This document shows, piece by piece, positions 1,457 to 33,112 of a stretch of 64,000 nucleotides of DNA. A model generated the notes under the pieces. That model had not been told where the DNA came from and searched no databases. It worked only from the letters and a program-made list of their open reading frames with translations. The stretch is from positions 1 through 64,000 of the IMG/VR virus record IMGVR_UViG_3300047382_000771; one strand, 5' to 3'. The position numbers were made by a program, and so were the translations under genes. The stretch's first letter is position 1; each line of letters begins with the position of its first letter. This stretch comes from a virus.

Positions 1457-1624
1457 TCATTCGGAGTCAAGAGAAAAATTACAAAATTGATGTCCATACT
1501 CATCATAAAACGCTTGAACCACTTCAACCGCGTTTAATATTTTAAGATGTTCATCCGAGCTTTCACCTAATGCAGAAACTTCTGCTTCATTGATAACCAA
1601 AGATAATGCTTGTTCTAATTTCAT
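1457..1624 (-). CDS. Hypothetical acidic protein (55 aa)
   Basis: The frame runs from the ATG at 1622-1624 to the TGA at 1457-1459 and encodes an acidic helical protein (MKLEQALSLV...). The start lies exactly 6 nt after a -10 box, so the A of ATG is the predicted transcription start. That placement supports the frame as a real gene with a leaderless mRNA. Function unknown. Confidence 0.6.
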   Translation of the reverse strand: MKLEQALSLVINEAEVSALGESSDEHLKILNAVEVVQAFYDEYGHQFCNFSLDSE

Positions 1625-1630
1625 ATTTAA

Positions 1631-1659
1631 AGATTATTATGTTGAGTGCTTTTTGTCAA
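1631..1659 (-). promoter_or_regulatory. Class I promoter with stop codon in the -35 box
   Basis: The -35 TTGACA (1654-1659), a 17-nt spacer and the -10 TAATCT (1631-1636) precede the ATG at 1624 by 6 nt. The TGA stop of the upstream gene (1656-1658) is part of the -35 hexamer. Confidence 0.65.
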
Positions 1660-1856
1660 GATTTTTCTCCAAATAATTGATTCCACTCATCCTTAATTTC
1701 AATGTCGGGTACTTCATCTAAGCCTTGGACGCCATTCATTAATAACTCTATAATTTGACCCACATTCATATTCATTGCTTCCATTTCAGCAATATCATAA
1801 CGCATATCATCAATAGTGGGTTCACCCACTCTACATTGTCTTTCTGTTGTTCTCAT
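1656..1856 (-). CDS. Hypothetical acidic protein (66 aa)
   Basis: This small acidic protein, with MRYDIAEMEAMNMNVGQIIELLMNG near its middle, has no family I recognise. The ATG lies 5 nt after the stop of the upstream gene without a Shine-Dalgarno motif, which suggests coupled translation. It ends LFGEKS with a TGA that doubles as the core of the next promoter's -35 element. Confidence 0.6.
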   Translation of the reverse strand: MRTTERQCRVGEPTIDDMRYDIAEMEAMNMNVGQIIELLMNGVQGLDEVPDIEIKDEWNQLFGEKS

Positions 1857-1861
1857 AATTT

Positions 1862-2062
1862 TTATTCTGCTTCAGTTGTCCCAATAACTAACAACTTAAC
1901 ATCTTCACCATCTCCTGTCAAGTTGAAAGTTTCACAAATTTCACCAAAAATTTTACCATCTTCGGGGCGAATGCTAATCCAAGTGCAGTTGCCACTATCG
2001 TTATCCACTACATCCCAATCGTTTTCTTGTAGTAAAACTTTTTGCTCTTCAGTTAATTTCAT
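1862..2062 (-). CDS. Hypothetical protein (66 aa)
   Basis: This small acidic protein (MKLTEEQKVLLQENDWDV...) has no domain I recognise. It overlaps the end of the upstream 75-residue gene by 14 nt and lies 5 nt from the next start, so the three genes form one translational chain. Confidence 0.6.
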   Translation of the reverse strand: MKLTEEQKVLLQENDWDVVDNDSGNCTWISIRPEDGKIFGEICETFNLTGDGEDVKLLVIGTTEAE

Positions 2063-2276
2063 CTAATTCTTTCCAATCTATTTCGTCTGCTCTTATTTGC
2101 CATGCTACTTGCCCATTTGTGGGATCAGCATATTCAATATTAAAATCACAATCGTCAAGAGTTTTGTATGGATCATAACTCCTAACAATTTCTTCTGCTT
2201 CAGTTCTATTTTCTGCCTCTACATAAAAGCAATTAATTATTTTAACTCCAACGCAATATTCTCTTTTTTTATTCAT
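2049..2276 (-). CDS. DpnD/PcfM-like small protein (75 aa)
   Basis: The protein has the layout beta strand, then FYVEAENRTEAEEIVRSY, then an acidic tail. The VEA-x(4)-EAEEI pattern resembles small DpnD/PcfM-like proteins of phages and mobile elements, whose role is not known. Two neighbours (2875-3075 and 3353-3589) share the pattern, so these look like diverged paralogues. The A-rich leader lacks a clear Shine-Dalgarno sequence. Confidence 0.6.
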   Translation of the reverse strand: MNKKREYCVGVKIINCFYVEAENRTEAEEIVRSYDPYKTLDDCDFNIEYADPTNGQVAWQIRADEIDWKELDEIN

Positions 2277-2287
2277 TATTTTTTTCT

Positions 2288-2677
2288 TTATAAATCTCTA
2301 TTTAAATTATCAAGTCGCGCATCTTTCATAACTTGACTACCCCATTCAAATGGTGAGTTGTCAGTTAAGTCGCAAGCAATTTGTATATTAGTAACATTAT
2401 GCCATGCTTGATCTGCGAAAACACTTCCATCAGCATTAAGACTTGGTTGTTTGAACCATTTACGAGACTTCTTATAAGAAGCAATATGGCGTTCAATTAC
2501 TTCTATATCATCAGCAACGCAAGCTAAACGATGCCTAAGTTTGAAATTTTCTTTCTCTAAATCTTCGTTCTGTTCAAGTAAAGCTAACTTTTCATTTACT
2601 TCAGTCAATTTATTTTCATAAAATTGCTTGATAGAATCTTCGTAAGTTGGGTAATCGTCTCCTATTATTTCTTTCAT
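2288..2677 (-). CDS. Hypothetical coiled-coil protein (129 aa)
   Basis: Residues about 15-70 are highly charged and heptad-like (NKLTEVNEKLALLEQNEDLE...), predicting a coiled coil. The C-terminal half contains SYKKSRKWFKQPSLNADGS and DLTDNSPFEWGSQVMKDARL. I do not recognise the family. The ATG is 6 nt downstream of a -10 box, so its mRNA should be leaderless. Confidence 0.65.
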   Translation of the reverse strand: MKEIIGDDYPTYEDSIKQFYENKLTEVNEKLALLEQNEDLEKENFKLRHRLACVADDIEVIERHIASYKKSRKWFKQPSLNADGSVFADQAWHNVTNIQIACDLTDNSPFEWGSQVMKDARLDNLNRDL

Positions 2678-2683
2678 GCTCTT

Positions 2684-2712
2684 ACCTTATATTGATTGTT
2701 TTGAGTTGTCAA
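2684..2712 (-). promoter_or_regulatory. Class I promoter with stop codon in the -35 box
   Basis: The -35 TTGACA (2707-2712) is followed by TAAGGT (2684-2689) after 17 nt, or by TATAAG (2686-2691) after 15 nt. The ATG at 2677 is 6 nt beyond the 17-nt -10 candidate. The TGA of the upstream 54-residue gene lies in the -35 box. Confidence 0.6.
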
Positions 2713-2873
2713 GACTTTTTTCCTGTTAAGTATAATTGAATTTGCTTTCTAATATATATTGCAAGTTCGACTTGAATACTTGTGGACAACAAATTTGGCG
2801 AAACTACATGGTATCCATTGTCTTTTATATAATTATCAATACCTTCTATAATCTTTTTATCTAAATTATCCAT
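2709..2873 (-). CDS. Hypothetical small protein (54 aa)
   Basis: The frame starts MDNLDKKIIEGIDNYIKDNG and ends LTGKKS with TGA inside the next promoter's -35 box. It begins 1 nt after the stop codon of the upstream gene, which favours translational coupling. No domain recognised. Confidence 0.55.
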   Translation of the reverse strand: MDNLDKKIIEGIDNYIKDNGYHVVSPNLLSTSIQVELAIYIRKQIQLYLTGKKS

Positions 2874-2874
2874 A

Positions 2875-3075
2875 TTACATTTCGTAAGTTTGCTCCAAAT
2901 CTGCTTGAGCGTAATCCTCGCTAGTCATTGTGCATTGCTCACCAAAAATACTTAGTCCACCCTCTTCAACTAATATTTCGCGCGCCTCTTCTTCTGTTTC
3001 TGCTTGTATTTCATAAACGAAAGCAGTTGGCACAGAGAAAACAAAATATTTATCCTTTTTCTTTTGAGTCTTCAT
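2875..3075 (-). CDS. DpnD/PcfM-like small protein (66 aa)
   Basis: The protein reads KYFVFSVPTAFVYEIQAETEEEAREI: a beta strand, then an xxA-x(4)-EA helix start, as in the genes at 2049 and 3353. The tail is acidic. It overlaps the upstream AbrB-like gene by 26 nt. The family role is unknown. Confidence 0.6.
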   Translation of the reverse strand: MKTQKKKDKYFVFSVPTAFVYEIQAETEEEAREILVEEGGLSIFGEQCTMTSEDYAQADLEQTYEM

Positions 3076-3349: not shown

Positions 3350-3352
3350 AAG

Positions 3353-3589
3353 TTACTCCCCTCTAATATAAGCACCAAATTCATCATCGCTCATGCTAGA
3401 TGTTCCACCTTTAGGTTCACAAAGAACAACTTCCGCATTTTCTTTCCATGCTTCACTAATCTCCCAATCAGCGTCCATTTGAGAAAAAGCAATGTCTTGA
3501 GCTTTCGCAGGTGAATCAGCTTCAACTTCAAAAGTGCGATAAGTTGTGCTTGAGAATTCTACTTCAAATAATTTTTTTTCTTTTTTCAT
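3353..3589 (-). CDS. DpnD/PcfM-like small protein (78 aa)
   Basis: I choose the ATG at 3587-3589 (MKKEKKLFEVEF) because GAGGAA lies at Shine-Dalgarno distance; a longer frame to 3649 would run deep into the preceding gene. The segment TFEVEADSPAKAQDIAF repeats the strand-then-EA-helix pattern of two neighbours. A WEISEAW motif follows. Function unknown. Confidence 0.65.
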   Translation of the reverse strand: MKKEKKLFEVEFSSTTYRTFEVEADSPAKAQDIAFSQMDADWEISEAWKENAEVVLCEPKGGTSSMSDDEFGAYIRGE

Positions 3590-3593
3590 TGTA

Positions 3594-3959
3594 TTATTCC
3601 TCATATATATAAATTGGAGTATATTCGCCAACATGAGCGCCGTCAACATTAAAATGGAAAAAGTCTGTTGCGTCTCCTCGACTCATACCATCTCTTTCCA
3701 TAAATAATTCGATAATTTTACTAACAGAATAAATTGCAAGACCTTTCGTACTATAACCAATCAAGGCGTTATCTAAACCATCTGCCAATAATGCTTCGGG
3801 ATTAAATTCTGAAATATTTTCTTTTAATAGATTTACTCTATCCCTTTCGGCAAGCAAATTTTGAGTCTGATCTACTACCCTTAAACCTTCGTAGTATTCT
3901 TCTTCATCTTTCTTGCGTTGTAAATAATCTTGGTAATCTTGGTCTTCTTTTGGATTCAT
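3594..3959 (-). CDS. Hypothetical protein (121 aa)
   Basis: The N-terminal 30 residues are highly charged (DQDYQDYLQRKKDEEEYYEG), then the protein becomes mixed alpha/beta with a C-terminal YTPIYIYEE. No family recognised. The ATG follows a perfectly spaced TTGACA/TATAGT promoter by 6 nt, so a leaderless transcript is expected. Confidence 0.65.
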   Translation of the reverse strand: MNPKEDQDYQDYLQRKKDEEEYYEGLRVVDQTQNLLAERDRVNLLKENISEFNPEALLADGLDNALIGYSTKGLAIYSVSKIIELFMERDGMSRGDATDFFHFNVDGAHVGEYTPIYIYEE

Positions 3960-3965
3960 AGATGG

Positions 3966-3994
3966 ACTATAAAAAACAAACTAGATTATGTCAA
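3966..3994 (-). promoter_or_regulatory. Class I promoter with stop codon in the -35 box
   Basis: TTGACA (3989-3994), a 17-nt spacer and TATAGT (3966-3971) precede the ATG at 3959 by 6 nt. The upstream gene's TGA (3991-3993) is inside the -35 hexamer. This is one of the clearest examples of the module. Confidence 0.8.
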
Positions 3995-6008: not shown

Positions 6009-6632
6009 TTAATGTTTGTTAAAGGCTTCTAAGGTGTATTTGAATGGTTTACCTTCGATACTAGAAACTAATTCAAGCATTGTCAAGGATATTTCTCTTA
6101 TTTCTTTCTGTGCGTGTTCGCTACTTCTTAATTTTAAAAAGTTTGCAAAACTGCGCATATTAAAAGTGATGTCAGCTTGTATTTGAGAACTATAAGTCTT
6201 GAAAAATCTAGCAGACTCTTTAGCTCTTTTTCTTCCCAAGGTTGACTCTAACTCTTCTAAGCATAAATGGTACAACTTATTTCCCTCTGCATTAAAATCA
6301 AAAAGTTTTTGCTTCCATTTATTTGGAAAATCATCGGGGATGAAGAACTTATCTTCTTTTAACTCTTTATATCTAGCGGATTCAGCATTAATAGATGCTA
6401 TTCTATGCTTTAACAAATGTATGTGGCTTGCGATTTCAGTATCAACTAAAAAATGTACCATACCCTTCTCGAAAGGAGTTTCATGCCCATTCCCCCAAAG
6501 CATATCAATTAATTTCGGAATACGCTCTTTTTTTTCTTTAGTTAAATTGCGACTCGTACTCGTCCATGCAGAGCAAGCGATCACTTCGTCATTCCCATAG
6601 TAACCTAACAATTCGATCTTATTTTTCATCAT
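6009..6632 (-). CDS. thyX: Flavin-dependent thymidylate synthase ThyX
   Basis: ThyX makes dTMP from dUMP using methylene-tetrahydrofolate and FAD/NADPH, supplying thymidine for phage DNA. The signature motif appears as KHRIASINAESARY near residues 76-89 (family pattern RHR-x7-S), with HETPFEKG upstream in the dUMP/FAD-binding region and RSFANFLKLRSSEHAQKEIR near the C-terminus. At about 207 residues it is close to the usual family length. Two adjacent ATGs (6630-6632 and 6627-6629) are possible starts; the second lies 7 nt from a promoter -10. The dUTPase and dNMP kinase further right belong to the same pathway. Confidence 0.95.
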   Translation of the reverse strand: MMKNKIELLGYYGNDEVIACSAWTSTSRNLTKEKKERIPKLIDMLWGNGHETPFEKGMVHFLVDTEIASHIHLLKHRIASINAESARYKELKEDKFFIPDDFPNKWKQKLFDFNAEGNKLYHLCLEELESTLGRKRAKESARFFKTYSSQIQADITFNMRSFANFLKLRSSEHAQKEIREISLTMLELVSSIEGKPFKYTLEAFNKH

Positions 6633-7552: not shown

Positions 7553-8128
7553 CTATTTTGCATATTCATGTTCCATTAATTGCTTGATTTTATCTCTAGC
7601 TTCACCCCAAAGTTGAGATTCGACTTTTTCATCAAATGCTTGTAATTTCATTATTCCATAACGATACCACACATCACATATCTTGTCAATGTTTTTATCA
7701 TCGGGTTTTACATTGTAATGATTCCAATTTTTTTCTCCATCAATTATTTCTTGCTCTATCCATTCAGCAGGGAAACCATTTGGAAAATACATAAGAGCAT
7801 TGTCGTTTGCAAACTTTCTAGCAAGAGATACAAAACTATCCTCTATTTCATGTGATTCATAAAGGTCTGCATCTTCATACCAAGACTCGTAGACACTAAT
7901 TTCAAATTGAAAAGTATCTTTGATGGCAACATATTCTTGCTCAAACTTTTGTCGATTATCGTCACCATGCTCTAATATGTCAAGAGTATGAGCTTTACCA
8001 TACCATTTCATATGTTTCATAACTCGACTATTATAAATAATCTTTTGAAACTCCTCAAGGAGTTCGTTATTAGACTTTGCAGTATATTGCGTTCTTCTAA
8101 AACTTACTGATAATCCTTCTCCGCTCAT
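7553..8128 (-). CDS. Hypothetical protein (191 aa)
   Basis: The protein is soluble and rich in Tyr, Trp and Glu (YESWYEDADLYESHEIED near residues 75-92). I do not recognise a family. Its ATG lies 8 nt from a consensus-like -10 box, so it heads a transcript with almost no leader. Confidence 0.65.
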   Translation of the reverse strand: MSGEGLSVSFRRTQYTAKSNNELLEEFQKIIYNSRVMKHMKWYGKAHTLDILEHGDDNRQKFEQEYVAIKDTFQFEISVYESWYEDADLYESHEIEDSFVSLARKFANDNALMYFPNGFPAEWIEQEIIDGEKNWNHYNVKPDDKNIDKICDVWYRYGIMKLQAFDEKVESQLWGEARDKIKQLMEHEYAK

Positions 8129-8136
8129 AATTAATT

Positions 8137-8165
8137 AATATAGATATGTAGGTAGATATTGTCAA
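8137..8165 (-). promoter_or_regulatory. Class I promoter with stop codon in the -35 box
   Basis: TTGACA (8160-8165), a 17-nt spacer and TATATT (8137-8142) precede the ATG at 8128 by 8 nt. The TGA of the upstream gene (8162-8164) lies in the -35 box. Confidence 0.75.
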
Positions 8166-8496: not shown

Positions 8497-8760
8497 TTAC
8501 TTCACTTTCTTTTCGTTATTTAAATGGTTTTGGTCAAAAATGTCGTCTTCATCAAAGACTCTATGTTCTTGTTTGAAATTTTGATATTCCACCCACAACT
8601 TATCGTACAAAGTTTGGTGTAGTTGACTCATTCCAATTAACATATTTAATAACTCATCTTCTGTATATTGACGAGGAGCATCTCCAATCGCATACATAAG
8701 AATATCAATATTCTCTTGGATGTTGGACATATTACCCATTGCTTGTTCTAATTTATTCAT
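8497..8760 (-). CDS. Hypothetical helical protein (87 aa)
   Basis: This acidic helical protein (MNKLEQAMGNMSNIQENIDIL...) overlaps the end of the macro-domain gene by 8 nt. It has no recognised domain. Confidence 0.55.
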   Translation of the reverse strand: MNKLEQAMGNMSNIQENIDILMYAIGDAPRQYTEDELLNMLIGMSQLHQTLYDKLWVEYQNFKQEHRVFDEDDIFDQNHLNNEKKVK

Positions 8761-9256
8761 GGTATCTAACTATATATGTTTTAAATGATCTGTCAACTAA
8801 AATATCGTGAATCATTGTATTAATAATTCTTTTACTTCCACCCGCAAGACCGCAAGAGATGCCGTAGGGCAAGCCTAGAACCTTCTCTTCGTCATCGTGC
8901 TTACTTTGCCATTCAATATGATCTGCAACATTTTCTAGTGCAACATAAAATGCTTCGTAATTAACTGCTCTTTTGCCCCCAACTTTATCTTGCGTATACA
9001 TATTATATACCCCTTTATTTTGAGTGGCATCAGCCCATGCGAAACTAAAGTTACCCAATACATTTTTATCTTCCATCATCGCATGGCAATCAGCCGAGTA
9101 TGCTTCGGGGTAAGTGTGCTTTATATCAAGAGCAATACCTGCGCCCATAACATTATGAGTATTGCAGGAATGAGCGATGTAATCCAACCCATGAAAGTGC
9201 ATCTTTAATAAGTTACCCTCAATAATTTCTATATTTTCACATAATATGTCTGTCAT
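8753..9256 (-). CDS. Macro domain protein (ADP-ribose binding)
   Basis: Residues about 12-45 read EGNLLKMHFHGLDYIAHSCNTHNVMGAGIA, the macro-domain start: a strand, an N-rich loop and the GxG loop that holds ADP-ribose. Residues about 127-140 contain LPYGISCGLAGG, the second glycine-rich loop. Related macro domains hydrolyse ADP-ribose-1''-phosphate or remove ADP-ribose from proteins or nucleic acids. At 167 residues it is a single domain. In a phage it could reverse host ADP-ribosylation used in defence, but that is inference. Its mRNA should be leaderless, with the ATG 6 nt after the -10. Confidence 0.8.
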   Translation of the reverse strand: MTDILCENIEIIEGNLLKMHFHGLDYIAHSCNTHNVMGAGIALDIKHTYPEAYSADCHAMMEDKNVLGNFSFAWADATQNKGVYNMYTQDKVGGKRAVNYEAFYVALENVADHIEWQSKHDDEEKVLGLPYGISCGLAGGSKRIINTMIHDILVDRSFKTYIVRYHE

Positions 9257-9262
9257 AATTGT

Positions 9263-9291
9263 AAATTAGTATATAAACAATGATGTGTCAA
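9263..9291 (-). promoter_or_regulatory. Class I promoter with stop codon in the -35 box
   Basis: TTGACA (9286-9291) and TAATTT (9263-9268) are 17 nt apart, and the macro-domain ATG follows 6 nt later. The TGA of the nuclease gene (9288-9290) is part of the -35 element. Confidence 0.65.
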
Positions 9292-9758: not shown

Positions 9759-10760
9759 TTATTTTAATAAGTTATCTCTAAGAAGTTTGATTGCTTTATC
9801 TTTACCTTTTACTTCACATTCCCATTTAGCAGGTTTGTCGGGTTCAATCGCAATGTAAGGTGGGCAATTTCCTAAAGCAAAATACTCTGCATGAGCGCGA
9901 GGTTTTTCGGGAGTGCCTTCTGACCAATGAAAAACAGGGGCAATAAAATATCCTTCGCTATCACCTTGAGCAACCCATGTATGCGCGCAACGTTCTGCTT
10001 GAAATCCAACACTACCATCTTCTGATGGATTGCAATAGTCGTGCAAGTTGTCGTAGCAAACAGGAATATTAACGCCATGAACTGCAAACAAATACTCGCT
10101 AAATTTAATGCAATTATCTACATTGAAGAAACCTTTGTCTTCGTTCTCGATAGTAAGACGATTGTAAACACCTTTGTCGCACATGGAAAGATTGCGAAAA
10201 AATCTAGTAGCAACAACCTCTAATGTTTCGTCACCTTTAGGATTGTAATTAATATGAATGTTCATTGGGGCAGTATGATCTTGAGGTAAGCCTATTTTGT
10301 CAAGCACACTAGCTTGCATATTTAATTCCCCAATAGTTCTGCGAACTGCGTCGGGATTTGTAGATGCAAGAACATTAAATTGATCGGGGTGAGAACCCAT
10401 ACTTATGCCGTTCTCTCTAGCAGTTTTACCTACTTGTTTTAATTCTTGGTTAATTTGCTCAATATCGGGCAATTCATCAAGAGAAATCTCCAAAGTTTCA
10501 TCGGTAACGAGAGGAAAAAGAGCAGAACTAACACGATAATGCCCGATATTTGACTTAGCACAATGACCGACAATAGATTCAGTAACAACAACATTGTGCA
10601 AAATTCTACTAGATAGCTCCTTAATTGCTTCATTTCTACCTATACTTACACAAAGATCGTTAAATCTTTTGCGTGTCATAGTACGAAAAGAATATTCTTT
10701 TTTATCTATATCCTTTAGTTGTTCACTAATGCAAGTTAAGCCTAGAATTTGATGTGTCAT
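9759..10760 (-). CDS. uvsE: UV-damage endonuclease (UvdE/UvsE), intact
   Basis: UVDE is a TIM-barrel, metal-dependent endonuclease that nicks 5' of UV photoproducts and starts an alternative excision repair. All the expected metal-ligand positions can be matched: H74 (GHYRVSS), H124 (GSHPDQF), H169 (NIHIN), E205 (TIENEDKG), D237 and H240 (CYDNLHDYC), H278 (FHWSEG), H290 (RAHAEYF) and E316, with K318 beside it. At 333 residues it is near the usual family length. It heads its own transcript, with its ATG 6 nt after the -10, and the nuclease gene follows directly. A degenerate paralogue lies at 31069-32190. Confidence 0.93.
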   Translation of the reverse strand: MTHQILGLTCISEQLKDIDKKEYSFRTMTRKRFNDLCVSIGRNEAIKELSSRILHNVVVTESIVGHCAKSNIGHYRVSSALFPLVTDETLEISLDELPDIEQINQELKQVGKTARENGISMGSHPDQFNVLASTNPDAVRRTIGELNMQASVLDKIGLPQDHTAPMNIHINYNPKGDETLEVVATRFFRNLSMCDKGVYNRLTIENEDKGFFNVDNCIKFSEYLFAVHGVNIPVCYDNLHDYCNPSEDGSVGFQAERCAHTWVAQGDSEGYFIAPVFHWSEGTPEKPRAHAEYFALGNCPPYIAIEPDKPAKWECEVKGKDKAIKLLRDNLLK

Positions 10761-10766
10761 TTTGTT

Positions 10767-10795
10767 ACAATACTTGAGATGTATTCATTTGTCAA
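10767..10795 (-). promoter_or_regulatory. Class I promoter before uvsE
   Basis: TTGACA (10790-10795), a 17-nt spacer and TATTGT (10767-10772) lie 6 nt before the uvsE ATG. The region is divergent with the plus-strand gene at 10818, for which I see no equally good promoter. Confidence 0.75.
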
Positions 10796-10817
10796 GCGTT
10801 TTTGTGTACTAATATGT

Positions 10818-11057
10818 ATGGAGATAAACGAAATTATTATTTTGGGGATTGGCACTTTGGTATCAGTTATAGCTTTTTATTTAAAAAGAGAGGCTTTAAA
10901 AATAGAAAGAGTGCATAACGATTTGAGAAAGATGGAAATAGATTTAGCTAAAAACGATGCTAGAGATGCTGAAAGATGGATTCAGATACAAAAACTTTTA
11001 GAAGACCGCAGGATTGATGCTATTAAAATATTTGAAAAAATAAATAATTTAAAATAA
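10818..11057 (+). CDS. Membrane-anchored coiled-coil protein (79 aa)
   Basis: The ATG at 10818 gives a hydrophobic span at residues about 5-21 (IIILGIGTLVSVIAFYL), then a long charged coiled coil to the C-terminus. The layout, one N-terminal membrane anchor plus a helix, is that of an Rz-like inner-membrane spanin or a membrane-scaffolding protein. It is the first of three touching plus-strand genes, the only plus-strand genes I accept. Alternative roles include superinfection exclusion. An upstream ATG (10749) would cover the divergent promoter and is unlikely. Confidence 0.65.
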   Translation: MEINEIIILGIGTLVSVIAFYLKREALKIERVHNDLRKMEIDLAKNDARDAERWIQIQKLLEDRRIDAIKIFEKINNLK

Positions 11058-17044: not shown

Positions 17045-17275
17045 TTAATCAAATTTTGTAATTTTATATTCTATCTTAGGAGTTTCCTCCTTATTTAAAT
17101 CGATAACCTTAGATTGTGGTTCTAAGGGTATGGGGCTAACATAGTCTTGTCCTGTCAAGGCGTCAAGCCATTTCTTACATACGACAACTTTTGTTTTGCG
17201 ACCTACCCAATCGCCAAGTTCTTCATAACTAATTTCAATATATGGGCTATAACCCTTTGGTCTTCCTCTATTCAT
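17045..17275 (-). CDS. Hypothetical basic protein (76 aa)
   Basis: It begins MNRGRPKGYSPYIEISYEELGDWVGRKTKVVVCKKWLDAL, with an AT-hook-like RGRPKG motif at residues 3-8 suggesting minor-groove DNA contact. It is the first gene of the RuvB-like unit and ends 1 nt before that gene's ATG. Function unknown; DNA binding is inference. Confidence 0.6.
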   Translation of the reverse strand: MNRGRPKGYSPYIEISYEELGDWVGRKTKVVVCKKWLDALTGQDYVSPIPLEPQSKVIDLNKEETPKIEYKITKFD

Positions 17276-17284
17276 AATAATGTG

Positions 17285-17313
17285 ACATTAAACAGATAAA
17301 TAATAAATGTCAA
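17285..17313 (-). promoter_or_regulatory. Class I promoter with stop codon in the -35 box
   Basis: TTGACA (17308-17313), 17 nt, then TAATGT (17285-17290); the ATG at 17275 is 9 nt downstream. The TGA of the upstream gene (17310-17312) is inside the -35 box. Confidence 0.65.
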
Positions 17314-19498: not shown

Positions 19499-20053
19499 TT
19501 ATTTGTATAATTTCGAGTTGTTTTTTAGTCTTTGGATAACCCTTCTTTTATATGTATAAAATTGGGAATCCTTGGTTAATTTCATTGCGTAAACAATGTC
19601 TGCTTTAGACCAACCTTTAAGTTGGTATTCAAAAAATTCTTTTTCACGCGGAGGCATTAATTTATTTTTAATTTCATGCAAAATCTTCATCTGCTCTTCG
19701 TGTAATTCTCGTTTTAATATAGAATCAAAAGGCATTTTGCTTTCAACATGATGGAGGGAGTGAGCAAATGAATCTTCTGAATAATTTTCGTGTTCTTTAT
19801 TGCGTTTTTTTGCTGTTAAATAACCCATTATTTGCCAATGCAATATTGAGAACGCCCATCCATAAAAATTTCCACCATCCTTATAATCAGATTGTTTATT
19901 AATAATTATATTTAAAGTGTTTTGAACTACATCTTCAGCATCTTGTTTGTTGAATATTTTAGATTTAGCTTTACAGAGTAAAGGTCTGTGAACCATTGAA
20001 ATTTTATCCTCATAGCATATTGAATTATTTATTCTGTTTTTGAGGTCGCTCAC
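19499..20053 (-). CDS. ECF-type sigma-70 family factor (184 aa)
   Basis: Region 2 is visible as KAKSKIFNKQDAEDVVQNTLNIIINK with FYGWAFSILHWQIMGYL, matching the ECF sigma2 pattern AEDVVQ-x-T and F-x-GWAF. Region 4 is represented by LMPPREKEFFEYQLKGWSKADIVYAMKLTKDSQFYTYKRRVIQRL, a helix-turn-helix in the usual place. Length fits ECF factors. It would redirect host RNA polymerase to a phage promoter class. The GTG start overlaps the upstream TGA. It belongs to the unit behind the palindrome promoter at 21247. Confidence 0.8.
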   Translation of the reverse strand: MSDLKNRINNSICYEDKISMVHRPLLCKAKSKIFNKQDAEDVVQNTLNIIINKQSDYKDGGNFYGWAFSILHWQIMGYLTAKKRNKEHENYSEDSFAHSLHHVESKMPFDSILKRELHEEQMKILHEIKNKLMPPREKEFFEYQLKGWSKADIVYAMKLTKDSQFYTYKRRVIQRLKNNSKLYK

Positions 20054-20960: not shown

Positions 20961-21239
20961 TTATAAAAAAGCCATTTGGCTTTCGTCTTCGCGTTCGTGT
21001 TCGCGTTCGTGTTCTTCAATATCATCTAAAGGCTCTGTACTTTTAACTTTATTTGGCACAGTCTTGTTCCTAAACCAATTACGTTGAGCTATACGCACAA
21101 GAAAGCGAACAAAGGCGAAAGCATAGGTTTTATTTAATTCAATAATACCTTCTGTGCCGTCATGGTTATGGAGGATGAATACTTTTCGCTCCTCGTCCCA
21201 CTCAAAAGTGGCGTGTTTAAGTTCCTTACTAATCTTCAT
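20961..21239 (-). CDS. Hypothetical protein, first gene behind operator-promoter (92 aa)
   Basis: The protein has a central hydrophobic-basic helix (AFAFVRFLVRIAQRNWFRN) and an acidic tail with an EREHEREDE repeat. No family recognised. It is preceded by a class I promoter whose -10 lies in a perfect inverted repeat ending at the ATG, so it heads a regulated unit that reaches the ECF sigma and HNH genes. Confidence 0.6.
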   Translation of the reverse strand: MKISKELKHATFEWDEERKVFILHNHDGTEGIIELNKTYAFAFVRFLVRIAQRNWFRNKTVPNKVKSTEPLDDIEEHEREHEREDESQMAFL

Positions 21240-21258
21240 GTGGTATAATATACCACAT
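21238..21258. promoter_or_regulatory. Operator-like perfect palindrome at a start codon
   Basis: Two 10-nt arms (plus-strand ATGTGGTATA and TATACCACAT) flank a single central A. The palindrome covers the -10 box and includes the start codon of the gene at 20961-21239. A repressor dimer bound here would block both transcription and start-site access. Confidence 0.65.
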
Positions 21259-21275
21259 TATAATAATAATATCAA
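21247..21275 (-). promoter_or_regulatory. Class I promoter with operator overlap
   Basis: TTGATA (21270-21275), 17 nt, TATATT (21247-21252). The ATG is 7 nt downstream, so the transcript should be nearly leaderless. The palindrome at 21238-21258 covers the -10. Confidence 0.7.
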
Positions 21276-23046: not shown

Positions 23047-23297
23047 TGAGCTTCAGGGTTTACACTAGTAGTTACACGCGGTTCACTAGTTTCGCCCTTT
23101 TCAGCTGCTTCTTTTTCACGTTCAAGAATTTCAGACATAATTTTTTTAAGCTCTTCTTCTCCTAGAGTCTCTACTCTTTCTCTAGCCAAATGAATGCTGT
23201 AATGCTTTGCGGCTGCTACGAGCCCGTTTAAATTAAATGAGTTTAAAAACTCATTAGCAATAGTAACTGTAATCTTTTCGATTTCTTGATCTGTCAT
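23043..23297 (-). CDS. Hypothetical helical protein (84 aa)
   Basis: The protein is helical (IEKITVTIANEFLNSFNLNG..., then EELKKIMSEILEREKEAAEKG). It overlaps the oxygenase stop and the next small gene. No family recognised. Confidence 0.55.
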   Translation of the reverse strand: MTDQEIEKITVTIANEFLNSFNLNGLVAAAKHYSIHLARERVETLGEEELKKIMSEILEREKEAAEKGETSEPRVTTSVNPEAQ

Positions 23298-23908
23298 GAT
23301 AAATATATTATACGAGAAAGTGGACGTTTTTCAACTAAATATTTAGGGAGATACATAAAATTCCCAGCAACAATGCTTCTGTTTTCCCCATCATTGTGAG
23401 GAACATGGTGGCGTACCCAAGATGGAAAAACCAGCATTTTTCCAGGAACAGGCTTGATAGATAAGTCTTCTTCCCCAAAAACTAAAGGCGAGGAACCTTC
23501 TGGGCAGTTAACAAAAAAAACAAAAGACCAATGACAAGGCAAATGACTATGCGAGGACTGAAACGCCCCAACAGGATAATACTGAGCCCAGAGAGAATTT
23601 ACCTCAAGAGCGAATTCACTATTATTGCAATGCTGTATTAAATTATTATATTTAATATCATCTCCGAATTTATTTAAAGATGTGTCGCTTATTTTGTCGC
23701 CAAAAGAATTTATTATTTTTAAAGCTAAACTTGCAATATGCTTGAACTCTGGGCAGAAATGCCTCCACTCTGTCATAATTGCACCCATATTAAAGGTTCG
23801 TGAATTATTTATTATGATTTCATGCAAATACGCCAAACTAAAAGGCAAGTTCTCGACGTCTTCTGAGATTATTTTACAGCTTTGGGAGCAAATTAAGTCA
23901 GTTGCCAT
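23294..23908 (-). CDS. 2OG-Fe(II) oxygenase family protein (204 aa)
   Basis: Residues about 118-185 hold the double-stranded beta-helix core: QSSHSHLPCHWSFVFFVNCPEG, then VPGKMLVFPSWVRHHVPHNDGENRSIVAGNF. The HSH, the later H in RHHVPH and the R in NRSIV match the iron and 2-oxoglutarate ligands of the phage-common 2OG-Fe(II) oxygenase family (putative prolyl-hydroxylase-like). Such enzymes hydroxylate proteins or nucleic acids. Its place between a sigma-like gene and a fibre operon suggests protein modification of a fibre, but that is inference. It starts 5 nt after the sigma stop. Confidence 0.75.
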   Translation of the reverse strand: MATDLICSQSCKIISEDVENLPFSLAYLHEIIINNSRTFNMGAIMTEWRHFCPEFKHIASLALKIINSFGDKISDTSLNKFGDDIKYNNLIQHCNNSEFALEVNSLWAQYYPVGAFQSSHSHLPCHWSFVFFVNCPEGSSPLVFGEEDLSIKPVPGKMLVFPSWVRHHVPHNDGENRSIVAGNFMYLPKYLVEKRPLSRIIYLS

Positions 23909-23913: not shown

Positions 23914-24630
23914 CTATGCAGTTGATTTCAATGAAGTATTAAACTTCGACCTGTACTTTGCACGTTTTGGGCCGAATAAATAATTAACAGAAGCCATGCC
24001 TTCTTTAATTACGGTATCTTCAGACTTAGATATTGACCCCTTTTTAATGTGACAGGATATTCTCTCATTTATTTCTTGGACGCAAACGGATATAGCTTGG
24101 TGAGTAATGCCTATAGCATCACCTACTTCATCAAACGTGTTGCCTTTCATAACAAATTCAAGAACAACTTTTTGCCTCTCAGATAGAAAGTGGCTGTAAT
24201 CAAAAATCCATTTTTTTAAATTTTCATATCTTTGGCTAGCGTCTAGTTTTTTGAACTCTGGATCTTCTTCTGCTTGGGTAGAGCATATTAATTCAAAATA
24301 TGTTGTCTCTTCAGGCCCAGTACCAGCATGAGTATCTACCTTTAAGTTGGAATATTTTTTGTCTTTTGGGGTGCATCCATCGGCAGTCCATTTGATATAA
24401 TTTCTAGCATAAGAATATGCTATTTTTTTAAAGTTATTAAAATCGATAACCCCTTTTTTTTCTATTAGTTTCTGCCTGTCTCTAACTAAGGCTCTATTAA
24501 CTTCAGATAAAACTTCTGAGTGACCTAATAAATGGTTAGAGAACCTATGCTTTCCAATAATTCTCGCTAGATCATCTTGGTAATCAACGAGCCATTTGTC
24601 GAATTCTTTATTTAATTCAATTTGATTCAT
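23914..24630 (-). CDS. Sigma-like RNA polymerase factor (238 aa)
   Basis: The C-terminal part contains FLSERQKVVLEFVMKGNTFDEVGDAIGITHQAISVCVQEINERI (residues about 145-188), a clear sigma region 4 helix-turn-helix. The N-terminal half (LLGHSEVLSEVNRALVRDRQK...FNNFKKIAYSYARNYIKW) fits region 2 loosely. About 50 residues follow region 4. It would be the second phage sigma-like protein in the window and a candidate reader of the late motif. It overlaps the upstream gene by 14 nt. Confidence 0.7.
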   Translation of the reverse strand: MNQIELNKEFDKWLVDYQDDLARIIGKHRFSNHLLGHSEVLSEVNRALVRDRQKLIEKKGVIDFNNFKKIAYSYARNYIKWTADGCTPKDKKYSNLKVDTHAGTGPEETTYFELICSTQAEEDPEFKKLDASQRYENLKKWIFDYSHFLSERQKVVLEFVMKGNTFDEVGDAIGITHQAISVCVQEINERISCHIKKGSISKSEDTVIKEGMASVNYLFGPKRAKYRSKFNTSLKSTA

Positions 24631-25462
24631 AATTTAAACATCTCTTGACTATTCTTTTGGAGGTACATAATTCTGTGGCTATTTTATTGTTGCTGTAACC
24701 TTTATTTTTTAGTTCTAAAACTTTTGGCCTAAGAAGTTTGTCTTTTTCTTCTTTAGTTTTTTTGTAATATTTAGAAAGAGAAGCTTTGCGTTTAACCTCT
24801 GAACCAGCATAGTTATGAAATTTACTAACAGGAGGCGGGAAATCTTTGGACCAATTTACCTCTACGAATTTAGTCTTCATCAATTTTCTCAAATACCTTG
24901 GGCTAACCCCAACATGAGAAGCAGCCTCTGTCCTATTATTATTACAAAAGGATAAAGCTAATTTTATTTTATCCCTTAAAGCATCGCGCTCTTTTTTTGG
25001 CCAAGGCTTCCACTTGCCATCGTAAATCATGTAAGGCTTTTTTTCTTCTGATGGAGAATAAACTTCAAACTTAGAATGGTTATCTTTGAAATAAAAATTC
25101 TTAGGACTTTTTTGAGACCCAAAACGATTTGTATACCCTTTAGGTCTCGCTTTTAAAAATTTAAACAAAATATTAGCACTATTTGGGAAAGCACACTTGT
25201 GAATATGCTCCCAATCCAATACTGTTAGTTTTAGATTATTTATAGTAGAATTAACTTTTAATAAATTGCAGGTGTATGCTTTGATCTTATGTCGAGCATT
25301 ATCTTCTTTCACCTTTTTGAGTAAGATTTTTTTAGCTAAAACGGAGGACATGGCCTTTATGATAACTTTGTAATCTCTTTCGGTATCGTCAGTATATACT
25401 TCTGTATACTGAATATTCCAGTATTGATCGTAAGAGTATTTAATAGGTTCTTTTTTAGGCAT
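24617..25462 (-). CDS. DNA-binding protein with two helix-turn-helix motifs (281 aa)
   Basis: The start is the ATG at 25460-25462 (MPKKEPIKYSYD), 6 nt after a -10 box. Two helix-turn-helix segments are visible near the C-terminus: NRTEAASHVGVSPRYLRKLMK (Fis-like) and LKNKGYSNNKIATELCTSKRIVKRCL. The middle is basic with WDWEHIHKC-type residues. It is the first gene of a unit with the sigma-like gene, so it is likely to be a regulator. Family not recognised. Confidence 0.65.
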   Translation of the reverse strand: MPKKEPIKYSYDQYWNIQYTEVYTDDTERDYKVIIKAMSSVLAKKILLKKVKEDNARHKIKAYTCNLLKVNSTINNLKLTVLDWEHIHKCAFPNSANILFKFLKARPKGYTNRFGSQKSPKNFYFKDNHSKFEVYSPSEEKKPYMIYDGKWKPWPKKERDALRDKIKLALSFCNNNRTEAASHVGVSPRYLRKLMKTKFVEVNWSKDFPPPVSKFHNYAGSEVKRKASLSKYYKKTKEEKDKLLRPKVLELKNKGYSNNKIATELCTSKRIVKRCLNYESN

Positions 25463-25468
25463 GAGCAA

Positions 25469-25498
25469 AGTATATCATATATGACGCAGTATTGTCAA
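25469..25498 (-). promoter_or_regulatory. Class I promoter with stop codon in the -35 box
   Basis: TTGACA (25493-25498), an 18-nt spacer and TATACT (25469-25474) lie 6 nt before the ATG at 25462. The TGA of the upstream gene (25495-25497) is part of the -35 box. Confidence 0.75.
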
Positions 25499-26397: not shown

Positions 26398-26602
26398 CTA
26401 AATCTATATCGCTTTCAAACTCAACATTACCCTCACCGCAAAGCTCTTCAATTTTCTCCTGCAGAGCCCCAATCATTGTTATTGTATTTAAATTATACTC
26501 ATCTATGTATCTATATACTAAATTGTCTAGATCCATACGAAAAGAATCTGTTTCTTCATCGTAATCTTTGGGTCCACTTATGTAAAAATCATCATCGCTC
26601 AT
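26387..26602 (-). CDS. Hypothetical acidic protein (71 aa)
   Basis: The protein (MSDDDFYISGPKDYDEETDS...) is strongly acidic with a central helix, LVYRYIDEYNLNTITMIGALQEKIEEL. Its ATG is 5 nt from a consensus TATAAT box. The tail is ESDIDLDEE. Function unknown. Confidence 0.6.
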   Translation of the reverse strand: MSDDDFYISGPKDYDEETDSFRMDLDNLVYRYIDEYNLNTITMIGALQEKIEELCGEGNVEFESDIDLDEE

Positions 26603-26607
26603 AAAAT

Positions 26608-26636
26608 ATTATAATATATAGTCCACTATTTTTCAA
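26608..26636 (-). promoter_or_regulatory. Class I promoter with perfect -10
   Basis: TTGAAA (26631-26636), 17 nt, TATAAT (26608-26613); the ATG is 5 nt downstream. The gap between the methyltransferase stop and the next gene holds nothing else. Confidence 0.75.
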
Positions 26637-27781: not shown

Positions 27782-27810
27782 AGAGGGACGACCATTATAG
27801 TCGCCCCTCT
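27782..27810 (-). terminator. Rho-independent terminator whose loop holds a -10 box
   Basis: On the minus strand AGAGGGGCGAC pairs with GTCGTCCCTCT (11 bp with one G-U), with a 7-nt loop, followed by a run of seven T. The loop TATAATG contains the -10 of the next promoter. It lies after the 86-residue holin-like gene and should stop transcripts arriving from upstream. Confidence 0.85.
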
Positions 27811-27822
27811 CTTAAAAGTCAA
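27794..27822 (-). promoter_or_regulatory. Class I promoter inside the terminator loop
   Basis: TTGACT (27817-27822), 17 nt, TATAAT (27794-27799) for the methyltransferase gene, ATG at 27769. A transcript starting about 7 nt after the -10 lacks the 5' arm of the hairpin, so it escapes termination while read-through transcripts are stopped. Confidence 0.8.
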
Positions 27823-30372: not shown

Positions 30373-30587
30373 TATCTAATCCTATAAGGCTCCGATGTGC
30401 GAACGATAGAGATATTATTTTTTTCGTGAGGACTATACTTGCTCACCATAGATACAAGTTTGGCAGCCCTTAATTCTGCCTCAGGTTGCGTGGTATAATT
30501 TTTCTCTTCTACCCTGCGACCTCCGCGTGTTACAACAAAATAAGGATTTGATCCTTTTTCTAAATTCTTAGTGCGAACATTAATCAT
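30372..30587 (-). CDS. Hypothetical basic protein (71 aa)
   Basis: I start at the ATG at 30585-30587 (MINVRTKNLEKG), 10 nt after a -10 box; a longer frame would start inside the -35 box and run through the promoter. The small protein has YFVVTRGGRRVEEKNYTTQPEAELRAAKL. Function unknown. Its stop overlaps the dUTPase start. Confidence 0.6.
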   Translation of the reverse strand: MINVRTKNLEKGSNPYFVVTRGGRRVEEKNYTTQPEAELRAAKLVSMVSKYSPHEKNNISIVRTSEPYRIR

Positions 30588-30597
30588 AATAGAAAGC

Positions 30598-30626
30598 ATT
30601 ATAGGGCAAATTTTATTAAAAGTCAA
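30598..30626 (-). promoter_or_regulatory. Class I promoter with perfect -10
   Basis: TTGACT (30621-30626), 17 nt, TATAAT (30598-30603), 10 nt before the ATG at 30587. It lies 18 nt beyond the tmRNA 3' end and probably drives the dUTPase-to-membrane-protein run. Confidence 0.75.
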
Positions 30627-30644: not shown

Positions 30645-31043
30645 TGGTGGACGTGGCGGGAGTTGAACCCGCGTCTTTAAAGCTTCAAGCGTTCACTTCT
30701 ACAAGCTTAGTCTATTTTTTTTAAAGTTATGATATAGACATCCAACTACTCGTTTTAATTATTCACTCAAACTTGAGGACCCCGAATAATCAGTGGTGCA
30801 GTTTTTAAAACTAGTAAAAATTTATCAGTTTTTACAGATAAATGACCCACATATTCTTATCTGTGTCAGATTATATGAGTTGGCAGGTGTTAAGCTGCCA
30901 TTTCGAGACCAAGCTCAATAGAGTCAAGGTCTACAACACGCTGAGAAGATTCTGCATGTATAAATTTGCGCCTTATTTAGGAGCCAGACGCACTCCTGCT
31001 TGCCATGAACCAATCCAATTTAAATCGAATCCAGAACACGCCC
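30645..31043 (-). ncRNA. ssrA: tmRNA (ssrA), one-piece
   Basis: The 5' end GGGCGTGTTCTGGATTCGA and the 3' end GCCACGTCCACCA form the tRNA-like domain: GGGCGTG pairs with CACGTCC over 7 bp, and the T arm has GGGTTCAACTCCC. A CCA is encoded. Pseudoknot 1 is visible: AGGAG pairs with CTCCT, and TGCGTC pairs with GGCGCA. The tag frame starts at GCA (30953-30955) and runs to TAA at 30890-30892, giving 21 residues that start AESSQRVVDL and end LGLEMAA, with the usual C-terminal Ala-Ala degradation signal. It rescues stalled ribosomes and tags peptides. It lies between the degenerate UvdE and the dUTPase run; phage-encoded tmRNAs are known but uncommon. Confidence 0.95.
30890..30955 (-). other. tmRNA tag-peptide reading frame
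   Basis: The resume codon GCA at 30953-30955 follows pseudoknot 1 at the expected distance. The frame ends GAA-ATG-GCA-GCT-TAA at 30890, encoding EMAA at the tag end. A competing GCA (frame ANLYMQNL...) overlaps the pseudoknot 3' strand and ends SVL, unlike known tags. Confidence 0.8.
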
Positions 31044-31068: not shown

Positions 31069-32190
31069 TTATTGAGAACTAGTGAATTGAACATCTCCAC
31101 CTTGGGAAACTATATCACTTCTTCTAGCTGACTCATACAATGCATTGTAGTTATCAGAAACTTTCCTGTACTTCCTGCGAGCAATCTCAAGCAATGCATC
31201 TTCAGACATTCTAGATGGAGCATCTGGGCCCATTAATTTAATAATGGCGATATCTTTATCTGTAACATCTACTTCCCATTTAATCTGGTAACCAAAATCT
31301 GGTATGGGTTGAGATAATTCTTTAGCATGAGCACGAGAACCTGGCTCTTTAGATTCAGACCAAGTAAATACAGGTACTACTCCATTCCAAGTTTCGTGAA
31401 AAGCTCCCACATTAACTTGTTGGTCAACTGTGGCCCCAGCGACTTTGGAAGGGTTGAGTTCGTCGAATAAATTATTATAAGCCAAGGGGAAACCGAAGTC
31501 ATGTTCTTCGTAGCAATATACGTGAAAGTATTTAAATAATCCAAATGCACTCCAAGATCCAGAGTCTGCATTTTTAAGCACTAACCTTTTCTGAGTATTG
31601 CTATCTAATAATTTAAAATTTTCATAGAACCTATCGACAAAATCACAATATGCTTCGTGGTTTTCTGCATCAGGCTGGGAGCTTAAATGCAAGGAGATTG
31701 GGGAAGAAATATTTTCTTGAGCTCCTATTTCATCTAAGAACCAGGAGTAAAAATTAAGTTCTTTTATGGATTTTTCAACAATAGAATCATCCGAATCTAT
31801 CAACTTACAAAACTTATCTGGCTGAATGGAAATAGAAACACCTTTTGTGATCGATGTTCTTCCGATATTTTTTATACCTTCAGACAATAAAGACTGATTC
31901 GGTAAGTTTGAGAAATCAATATCGAAAGAAGAATCAGCCAACAATCCAAACACAGAAGTGTTTAGTCTGTAATGATCTATATCGTTTGCCCTGCAGAAAT
32001 CTAATATTCGAACAGTTAGTTCGAGATTAGATAAAACTTGATTAGATAAAACCTCTAAAGCTTCTGACTCGCCCTTCTCTGAAGATAAGGCAGCGAACTG
32101 CTTACGAGTCATCGCTTTAAAGGTGTTTAAAGATGCATCTTCTTCTTGAAGATGCTTTGAGACGCAGATTAATCCATATTTAGTATTCAT
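31069..32190 (-). CDS. Degenerate UvdE paralogue (373 aa), probably non-catalytic
   Basis: The protein aligns along its length to the intact UvdE at 9759: YGLICVSKHLQ, HYRLNTSVFG, SISIQPDKF, SLHLSS, LVLKNADSG, AYNNLFDELNP, FTWSES and SRAHAKE are the matching blocks. Of the nine ligand positions, H124, E205, D237, H240 and H278 are replaced by Q123, K206, N239, F242 and T276; H73, H168 and H288 remain, and E316 is D308. K318 is T310. Metal-dependent cleavage is unlikely. A roughly 50-residue C-terminal tail is extra. It is preceded by the late motif, so it may be a structural or DNA-binding virion component. Confidence 0.85.
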   Translation of the reverse strand: MNTKYGLICVSKHLQEEDASLNTFKAMTRKQFAALSSEKGESEALEVLSNQVLSNLELTVRILDFCRANDIDHYRLNTSVFGLLADSSFDIDFSNLPNQSLLSEGIKNIGRTSITKGVSISIQPDKFCKLIDSDDSIVEKSIKELNFYSWFLDEIGAQENISSPISLHLSSQPDAENHEAYCDFVDRFYENFKLLDSNTQKRLVLKNADSGSWSAFGLFKYFHVYCYEEHDFGFPLAYNNLFDELNPSKVAGATVDQQVNVGAFHETWNGVVPVFTWSESKEPGSRAHAKELSQPIPDFGYQIKWEVDVTDKDIAIIKLMGPDAPSRMSEDALLEIARRKYRKVSDNYNALYESARRSDIVSQGGDVQFTSSQ

Positions 32191-32199
32191 AAGAATACT

Positions 32200-32206
32200 T
32201 ACACTT
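32200..32206 (-). promoter_or_regulatory. Class II (late-type) motif
   Basis: Minus-strand AAGTGTAA lies 9 nt before the ATG of the degenerate UvdE gene. The same motif precedes adhesin genes. Confidence 0.4.
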
Positions 32207-32459
32207 AAATTAAGTCTGGTTCTTCTACTACTTTAGGCTCAGGAGCTGCAGAGGAAGATTCTCCTTGAGGTTTCTGTTTATAGATCCTAAAATCAGGAGC
32301 TTTTGCGTTCTCTTCTTTATATTTATTCTTGAAGACAATAACTTTCTCTCCATTCATGGTACCTGTTAAGTATTTGGTACCATCTTGCTTTTGATTTACC
32401 CAAAGGGCGCCGACTTCACGATCATCCCATTCATTCTTTTCTTTATCTTTATCTGACAT
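32205..32459 (-). CDS. DUF736-like small protein (84 aa)
   Basis: Residues about 15-62 read REVGALWVNQKQDGTKYLTGTMNGEKVIVFKNKYKE...PDFRIYKQ, matching the short beta-barrel DUF736 pattern (GALW, YLTG, VFKNK, PDFRIY). Members are small phage and plasmid proteins of unclear role, possibly nucleic-acid binding. The Pro/Glu-rich tail is disordered. It lies between the deoxyribosyltransferase-like gene and the degenerate UvdE. Confidence 0.65.
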   Translation of the reverse strand: MSDKDKEKNEWDDREVGALWVNQKQDGTKYLTGTMNGEKVIVFKNKYKEENAKAPDFRIYKQKPQGESSSAAPEPKVVEEPDLI

Positions 32460-32466
32460 AGTAGTA

Positions 32467-32538
32467 TTAGTATTTACGAATTAAAACAAAGGCCACAATT
32501 AGACCTATTAAAAAATTAAACAAAATCATATCCGCCAT
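32467..32538 (-). CDS. Micro-membrane protein (23 aa)
   Basis: The frame MADMILFNFLIGLIVAFVLI ends RKY and is almost entirely hydrophobic. The ATG lies 1 nt from the upstream stop. Only location and hydrophobicity support it. Confidence 0.4.
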   Translation of the reverse strand: MADMILFNFLIGLIVAFVLIRKY

Positions 32539-32539
32539 A

Positions 32540-33076
32540 TTATCTAAACTCTTTTCTCAAGAGTCTCCATCTATCTGAATCAATATTTTTTGTACCATTA
32601 TCAATAGCATACAACATTTTTATGATTTCGTCAAGCGAATTATAAATATATTTATGAGGCAACATTCCTAACATCCATAAGGGAGCCTTTGATTTACCAC
32701 CTTCCATGCTTACAAAAACTGGTTTTTTTTCTCTTACCGCTGTAACAATTTCTTCTGCGCTCCCCCAACTTGCAACATCTGGAACAAGATGAGCTATAAT
32801 AAAATCACTTCTGTCTACAAGATTTAAATCATAAGCCCTGACTGTTTTCATTTTGTCAGCAACTAATTCATAATTTTCATCCTGCATCCATTTTTCCATA
32901 AGCATACGAGAGCCTTCATCCTCTTCGACATCTTTCATGAAAGGTTTTTCGTAGGGATTGAAACAAGTGATAGAAAGCTTAGATAACTTTTTTGTTACTT
33001 CTTGCCTCCAGTCTCGCCCACTCAGATACTGCATGTGGCCAACCAAATAAGTTTTGGTTTTGTATAATAAATTCAT
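32540..33076 (-). CDS. Nucleoside 2-deoxyribosyltransferase-like protein (178 aa)
   Basis: The N-terminus KTYLVGHMQYLSGRDWRQEVTKKLSKLSITCFNPYEKP is typical of the deoxyribosyltransferase-like fold: beta strand, G-x-M-x(5)-DWR, FNP. RAYDLNLVDRSDFIIAHLVPDVASWGSAEEIVTAVREKKPVFV contains the conserved D, D-x-I and GSAEEI with the catalytic Glu. Such enzymes exchange bases on 2'-deoxynucleosides or act in nucleoside and NAD metabolism. Common in large phages. Its promoter contains a palindrome reaching into the ATG. Confidence 0.8.
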   Translation of the reverse strand: MNLLYKTKTYLVGHMQYLSGRDWRQEVTKKLSKLSITCFNPYEKPFMKDVEEDEGSRMLMEKWMQDENYELVADKMKTVRAYDLNLVDRSDFIIAHLVPDVASWGSAEEIVTAVREKKPVFVSMEGGKSKAPLWMLGMLPHKYIYNSLDEIIKMLYAIDNGTKNIDSDRWRLLRKEFR

Positions 33077-33093
33077 GCTACATATAGTAGCAT
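33075..33093. promoter_or_regulatory. Operator-like palindrome at a start codon
   Basis: Arms ATGCTAC and GTAGCAT flank a 5-nt centre ATATA. The palindrome covers the -10 box and two bases of the ATG of the gene at 32540-33076. Confidence 0.55.
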
Positions 33094-33112
33094 CAATAAA
33101 CTAAAATGTCAA
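33084..33112 (-). promoter_or_regulatory. Class I promoter with operator overlap
   Basis: TTGACA (33107-33112), 17 nt, TACTAT (33084-33089); the ATG is 7 nt downstream. Confidence 0.7.

Follow-up and report, generated by a model that had tools for sequence, protein, structure and literature searches.

What does a promoter that ends only a few nucleotides (nt) before a start codon mean for the way in which a phage makes its proteins? The question is raised by a window of virus DNA, bases 1-64000 of a 200,094-base record in IMG/VR (IMGVR_UViG_3300047382_000771, labeled G000 here). A first-pass annotation of this window described about 18 minus-strand promoters with TTGACA-like -35 and TATAAT-like -10 elements and a close start codon, and it took their messenger RNAs (mRNAs) to be leaderless. 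A mechanical scan of the window recovers essentially the same set, which confirms the observation, and the pattern proves wider than first described. In the phage group to which the record belongs, leaderless transcription units are very likely a main mode of expression and are read from both early-type and late-type promoters.

The group consists of abundant, uncultured, large marine phages. A terminase search in IMG/VR returned at least 181 relatives, 80 of which were kept as terminase loci (L010-L089). The group set analyzed here comprises the record and seven longer related IMG/VR records (G001, G002, G003, and G006 among them), 839 kilobases (kb) in all, with G006 represented by 57 kb only. 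Stretches of T4, KVP40, HTVC008M, P-SSM2, and P23-45, 269 kb in total, served as control phages. Gene starts were taken from a simple gene caller combined with homology, and pattern scans of IMG/VR are used as samples rather than as total counts. The G+C content of the genome is 36%. A cultured relative was not found: the terminase is only ~22% identical to known phages; a host search gave no bacterial genome match, and other phage proteins searched for a cultured relative or a host gave no match either.

Early-type promoters and their distance from the start codon

In six of the seven relatives, TTGACA shows a spike 28-31 nt before the start codon. The hexamer lies 26-34 nt upstream of 155 genes, compared with 51-75 genes in control bands, and 81 genes carry it at exactly 29 nt. 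Alignment of these 81 upstream regions reveals a -10 element (T 0.67, A 0.88, nnn, T 0.89 as base frequencies) that follows a 17-nt spacer and ends 6 nt before the ATG, and the base at position -1 is a pyrimidine in 91%. After de-duplication, genes with a gap of 6 nt between the -10 and the start codon have a pyrimidine at -1 in 36 of 40 cases, versus 58% over all genes. A pyrimidine at -1 followed by a purine at +1 is the usual initiator, and the A of the ATG therefore fits as +1.

The same spacing is found independently of gene annotation. A scan of the 839 kb for TTGACn-N17-TAnnnT followed by an ATG-started open reading frame (ORF) yielded 63 cases at gap 6, 17 at gap 7, 13 at gap 8, and ~1.3 per other gap, which bears out the first-pass statement that the start codon often lies exactly 6 nt after the -10. 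Only one case at gaps 5-8 was obtained when the control phages were scanned in this way. A whole-genome motif search against shuffled sequence, proposed in the first-pass annotation as a check, gave eight promoters with at most one mismatch and a gap of 3-10, where 0.03 were expected from dinucleotide-shuffled upstream regions; the shuffles fall far short. A promoter matrix fitted by expectation maximization drifted to a loose AT-rich model, and only its gap-6 peak was used, not its counts. The start codons of the early class are 59 ATG and one GTG among called genes (the caller favors ATG) and 63 ATG and two GTG in the direct pattern scan. A perfect promoter also stands at gap 9 before the gene at record 83341-84357 (start 84357), whose product we take to be ribonucleotide reductase small-subunit-like; the gap is 7 in the G002 homolog.

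When perfect promoters followed by ATGA were sampled from IMG/VR, an ORF of at least 50 codons was present in 101 of 133 cases at gap 6 (L134-L253), compared with 27 of 122 at gap 13. The base at -1 is a pyrimidine in 92 of these 101 gap-6 ORFs. This excess at gap 6 indicates that the arrangement occurs elsewhere too, at lower density, and leaderless phage genes may be widespread among assorted viral contigs and under-recognized in general.

A second promoter class next to the start codon

A second, group-specific promoter class, DGTGTA-N9-ATG, was overlooked in the first-pass annotation. Words of the AAGTGTAAT type rank top upstream of minus-strand genes at record 31-179 kb. Among called genes, 33 have DGTGTA exactly 9 nt ahead of the start, where the background is 0.33 per position, and all 33 carry T or C at -1. 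The annotation-free count of DGTGTA-N9-ATG is 35 in the group (pyrimidine at -1 in 34), and the 80 terminase loci contain 106 (pyrimidine in 105), although many of these loci are homologous and the counts are thus not independent. No 9-nt peak appeared with scrambled motifs, in the IMG/VR sample, or in the control phages. The class uses 51 ATG and four GTG start codons as called by the same ATG-favoring caller. It is probably late, judging by the genes that it serves.

The gene after terminase offers the broadest view of this promoter. Its homologous proteins share 50-100% identity with the query, and among 46 distinct upstream sequences DGTGTA is located at exactly 9 nt in 40, T or C is found at -1 in 43, and a Shine-Dalgarno sequence is found in none. 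In nearly all of L010-L089, the DGTGTA of this gene is preceded by repeated ACTTTT blocks (e.g., TAACTTTT...TAGACTTTT) at intervals of ~14-16 nt; they are possibly a -35-like element or an activator site.

Genes with and without a Shine-Dalgarno sequence

Shine-Dalgarno sequences precede 11-23% of the genes in the group versus 39-53% in the control phages, with P-SSM2 as the exception (21%). In the early class, they are found in 5 of 60 short-gap genes versus 11 of 24 long-gap genes, and the corresponding numbers in the late class are 1 of 55 and 9 of 25. A DUF932-like gene takes on both forms. In 32 of 40 distinct homologs, the gap is 6-8 nt and a Shine-Dalgarno-like match is absent throughout. 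In the other eight, all with at most 61% identity, the promoter lies at 33-39 nt, and four of them have a Shine-Dalgarno-like match. The distribution is bimodal, with no homolog between the two ranges. A further gene, whose product begins with MSGEGL, keeps its start in 22 distinct upstream sequences, none of which has a Shine-Dalgarno sequence.

Judged by geometry, the leaderless type makes up ~53 of the 212 genes of G000, 67 of 219 for G001, and 39 of 171 for G002, and these are presumably the first genes of transcription units. It is probable that two polymerase specificities, host sigma-70 and a phage sigma that reads DGTGTA-N9-ATG, both default to leaderless mRNA in this widespread marine jumbo-phage lineage, with about a quarter of the genes and most recognizable promoters bypassing the Shine-Dalgarno sequence.

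Predicted route of expression and its alternatives

The promoters are so near the start codon that the RNA should begin there, which leaves no room for a ribosome-binding site. Since two unrelated promoter types converge on the A of the AUG as +1, leaderless mRNA is the best explanation. The first-pass proposal of leaderless mRNAs is thereby strongly supported, with the 6-nt spacing, the pyrimidine at -1, conservation, the scarcity of Shine-Dalgarno sequences, and the second promoter type all pointing to it.

In the predicted route, the early-type TTGACA-N17-TAnnnT would be read by the host sigma-70 RNA polymerase, and the late-type DGTGTA core would be read by another specificity, probably a phage-directed polymerase. 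For both kinds, transcription would start on the A of the AUG itself or no more than a few nucleotides away, and the resulting mRNAs with a 5'-terminal AUG would be incapable of carrying a Shine-Dalgarno sequence. Such mRNAs are bound by 70S ribosomes or depend on IF2, and IF3 disfavors them. Translation would proceed through leaderless initiation on host ribosomes, by the 70S monosome or by 30S plus IF2. We infer the true 5' ends, this translation route, the temporal classes, and the sigma factor for DGTGTA from sequence.

Four sigma-70/ECF-like proteins are encoded in G000, at record 19499-20053 (-), 23914-24630 (-), 95466-96035 (+), and 167977-168720 (-). The last one scores above the NCBIfam cut-off, and a sigma-like protein matching its family is encoded in each of G001, G002, and G003, which makes the protein at 167977-168720 the best candidate sigma for DGTGTA. 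The proteins at 19499-20053 and 23914-24630 were rejected as late sigma factors because they have no homolog in the relatives.

Several observations weigh against leaderless units as a main mode of expression. The 57 kb of G006 show no early TTGACA peak, many genes have no recognized promoter, and in the MSGEGL family the promoter threshold at gap 5-10 is reached by only 10 of the 22 distinct upstream sequences. A minority of genes is leadered with a Shine-Dalgarno-like sequence, and their coexistence with the leaderless type means that the phage is not reliant on leaderless initiation only. An error of 1-3 nt is possible for the 5' ends deduced from promoter geometry, and at gaps of 8-13 the transcripts may carry leaders of a few nucleotides. 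The reading presupposes a host with a matching sigma consensus and a tolerance for leaderless mRNA.

A related alternative is that the transcripts have a short leader, with transcription starting 1-10 nt upstream of the AUG and leaving a very short stretch free of a Shine-Dalgarno sequence. Gaps of 7-13 nt are present in both promoter classes, and the choice of transcription start is known to wobble by 1-2 nt. The modes are sharp, however, at 6 nt in the sigma-70 type and 9 nt in the late type, and together with the ~90-100% pyrimidine before the A they fit +1 at the A itself, so that a general short leader is unlikely.

The first-pass annotation had linked a possible special initiation mode to HPF and a transfer-messenger RNA (tmRNA). 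In a further alternative, the phage would use these two to remodel host ribosomes in favor of leaderless mRNAs. Both genes lie inside the window, and infection by phiYS40, a Thermus thermophilus phage, is reported to shift the levels of host IF2 and IF3 (PMC3594737). But none of the seven relatives has an HPF homolog, only G000 and G001 carry a tmRNA, and no initiation-factor homolog was found among the proteins scanned. Neither gene is thus tied to the leaderless trait; the link is unsupported, HPF and tmRNA were rejected as its cause, and remodeling by the phage is quite improbable. The host's own leaderless initiation, unmodified, would suffice, without phage-modified ribosomes. The tmRNA itself (window 30645-31043, minus strand) is a complete one-piece molecule that scores 124.8 bits in Rfam and has an unusual long tag, AESSQRVVDLDSIELGLEMAA; the tag of the G001 tmRNA is GNKNRVKAFGLKAKKLALAA.

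It is also very improbable that translation ignores the promoter-proximal AUG in favor of an in-frame AUG further downstream that has a Shine-Dalgarno sequence of its own. A few genes (e.g., 8497-8760) do have further AUGs inside 30 nt, but the N terminus set by the first AUG is conserved, as MSGEGLSVSF or close variants in all homologs compared and as an MPRKYTK-like sequence in the protein after terminase. Finally, although TAnnnT is frequent by chance at this G+C content, a meaningless artifact of AT-rich sequence, or of start codons picked beside -10-like hexamers, is already refuted by the single sharp peak of the annotation-free gap histogram, the shortfall of shuffles and control bands, the absence of a peak in control phages, and the spacing kept by homologs despite diverged surrounding DNA.

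Promoters and neighboring genes in the window

The window was scanned for TTGACA with at most one mismatch, a 16-18 nt spacer, a -10 with A2 and T6 fixed, and an ATG that begins an ORF of 40 codons or more. The scan returned 25 start sites, belonging to 24 promoter positions, with gaps of 3-11 nt, compared with 4, 14, 4, and 5 when four other bands of 9 nt were taken. Of the 25, about 18 are convincing and match the first-pass set, and the weak ones were discarded. Their ATGs lie at 1624, 2677, 3959, 5624, 8128, 8760, 9256, 10760, 15881, 17275, 21239, 23297, 25462, 26602, 30587, and 33076, and probably also at 6629/6632 and 54485. The gap is exactly 6 nt at seven sites (Table 1). The spacer was first described as 17 nt, and 18 nt once; 17 nt is indeed the most frequent length and the 18-nt case holds, but three sites have 16 nt.

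Two exceptions to the short gap had been listed. The terminator-embedded promoter is confirmed (Table 1), and the edge case at 25-53 is resolved by the copy at record 199934-200094, where the ATG of the complete gene lies 13 nt after the -10. Window 1-161 is near-identical to this copy, a direct terminal overlap of ~161 bases, which suggests that the 200-kb record is complete and represents a circular or circularly permuted genome of ~199.9 kb.

Table 1. Promoters in the window, with spacing given from the -10 (early type) or from DGTGTA (late type) to the ATG.
Position	Strand	Type	Sequence pattern	Spacing (nt)	Gene and remarks
1624..1659	-	early	TTGACA-N17-TAATCT	6	ATG 1624
2677..2712	-	early		6	ATG 2677; G002 homolog also gap 6
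3959..3994	-	early	TTGACA-N17-TATAGT	6	ATG 3959
8128..8165	-	early	TTGACA-N17-TATATT	8	ATG 8128; protein MSGEGLSVSFRRT; homologs found start alike
8760..8796	-	early	TTGACA-N16-TATAGT	8	ATG 8760; same upstream pattern in G001-G003 homologs
9256..9291	-	early	TTGACA-N17-TAATTT	6	Macro-domain-like
10760..10795	-	early	TTGACA-N17-TATTGT	6	UvdE-like endonuclease; G001 gap 6, G002 gap 7
10803..10818	+	late	TGTGTA-N9-ATG	9	short ORF; motif back to back with early promoter at 10795
17275..17313	-	early		9	ATG 17275
21239..21275	-	early	TTGATA-N17-TATATT	7	
23297..23334	-	early	TTGAAA-N16-TATAAT	9	
25462..25498	-	early	TTGACA-N18-TATACT	6	ATG 25462; 18-nt spacer of the first-pass annotation
26602..26636	-	early	TTGAAA-N17-TATAAT	5	
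27794..27822	-	exception	TTGACT-N17-TATAAT	24	terminator-embedded; leadered; cytosine methyltransferase-like
30587..30626	-	early	TTGACT-N17-TATAAT	10	ATG 30587
32190..32205	-	late	AGTGTA-N9-ATG	9	second UvdE-like gene
33076..33112	-	early	TTGACA-N17-TACTAT	7	nucleoside deoxyribosyltransferase-like; G001 gap 6
50166..50181	-	late	AGTGTA-N9-ATG	9	
54485..54519	-	early	TTTACA-N16-TATAAT	6	within structural region
55308..55324	-	late	AGTGTA-N10-ATG	10	
62099..62118	-	late	TGTGTA-N13-ATG	13	

At 10760-10818, an early (minus) and a late (plus) leaderless-type promoter stand back to back, with their ATGs ~57 bases apart. The window also contains two divergent genes for UvdE-like ultraviolet endonucleases, one with an early-type (9759-10760, minus strand) and one with a late-type leaderless promoter (31069-32190, minus strand). 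An 861-residue protein encoded at 12072-14657 (minus strand) has no match in Pfam, in PHROG, or among phages, and IMG/VR yields no relative of it.

Relation to known systems

Lambda cI is an isolated leaderless phage gene. Its mRNA begins at the AUG, as is predicted for the marine group, with the difference being that lambda has a single such gene and the group has dozens, served by two promoter classes. T4-type late promoters have a TATAAATA core that is recognized by the sigma factor gp55. They resemble the DGTGTA class as short single-block elements just upstream of the gene; the DGTGTA core differs from TATAAATA, and its 9-nt spacing to the AUG is fixed in the modal class. No gp55 homolog was found by phmmer. 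Lambda has been named as the first leaderless case (PMC3160421).

Bacterial leaderless genes carry TAnnnT ~12 nt before the start (Zheng 2011, PMC3160421). In Deinococcus-Thermus, the -10-adjacent leaderless pattern has been tested, and the -10 often works without a -35 (PMC12340547). The marine group shares with these TA-led genes a TAnnnT a few nucleotides before the start codon and the same type of reasoning, and three marks of TA-led leaderless genes are found here: a -10 whose position puts +1 at the start codon, scarce Shine-Dalgarno sequences, and a strong preference for AUG. The surveys of TA-led genes cover cellular genomes, whereas the phage group combines a strong -35 with a second, non-sigma-70 promoter class of equivalent geometry.

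The closest phage parallel is phiYS40, in which most middle and late transcripts are reported to be without a leader (PMC3594737); phage AR9, in contrast, has leaders of 26-491 nt (PMC5312081). Like the marine group, phiYS40 has a large genome; its leaderless transcripts must be accepted by host translation, as promoter geometry would predict for both promoter classes of the group. It differs in that middle and late genes are involved and in its Thermus host, which belongs to a phylum rich in leaderless genes in any case. In the unrelated marine lineage, both the sigma-70-type and the late-type classes would take part, and the promoters have full -35 and -10 elements. Within a partial coverage of the literature, no publication was found that deals with the marine group or the DGTGTA promoter.

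Implications for the phage group

Leaderless mRNA is usually seen as an oddity among phages, with Thermus phages as the main precedent on the genome scale. Here, leaderless geometry takes the form of a conserved quantitative design rule, followed by two unrelated promoter types across a marine lineage for which at least 181 terminase relatives were recovered. With this rule, transcription starts can be predicted in a simple way from nothing but the sequence, and gene callers that rely on Shine-Dalgarno sequences may place starts wrongly in genomes of this kind. With its leaderless and leadered forms, the DUF932-like gene provides a natural experiment on the switching of initiation mode. For the group as a whole, the findings suggest that an unusual start of protein synthesis underlies much of the gene expression.

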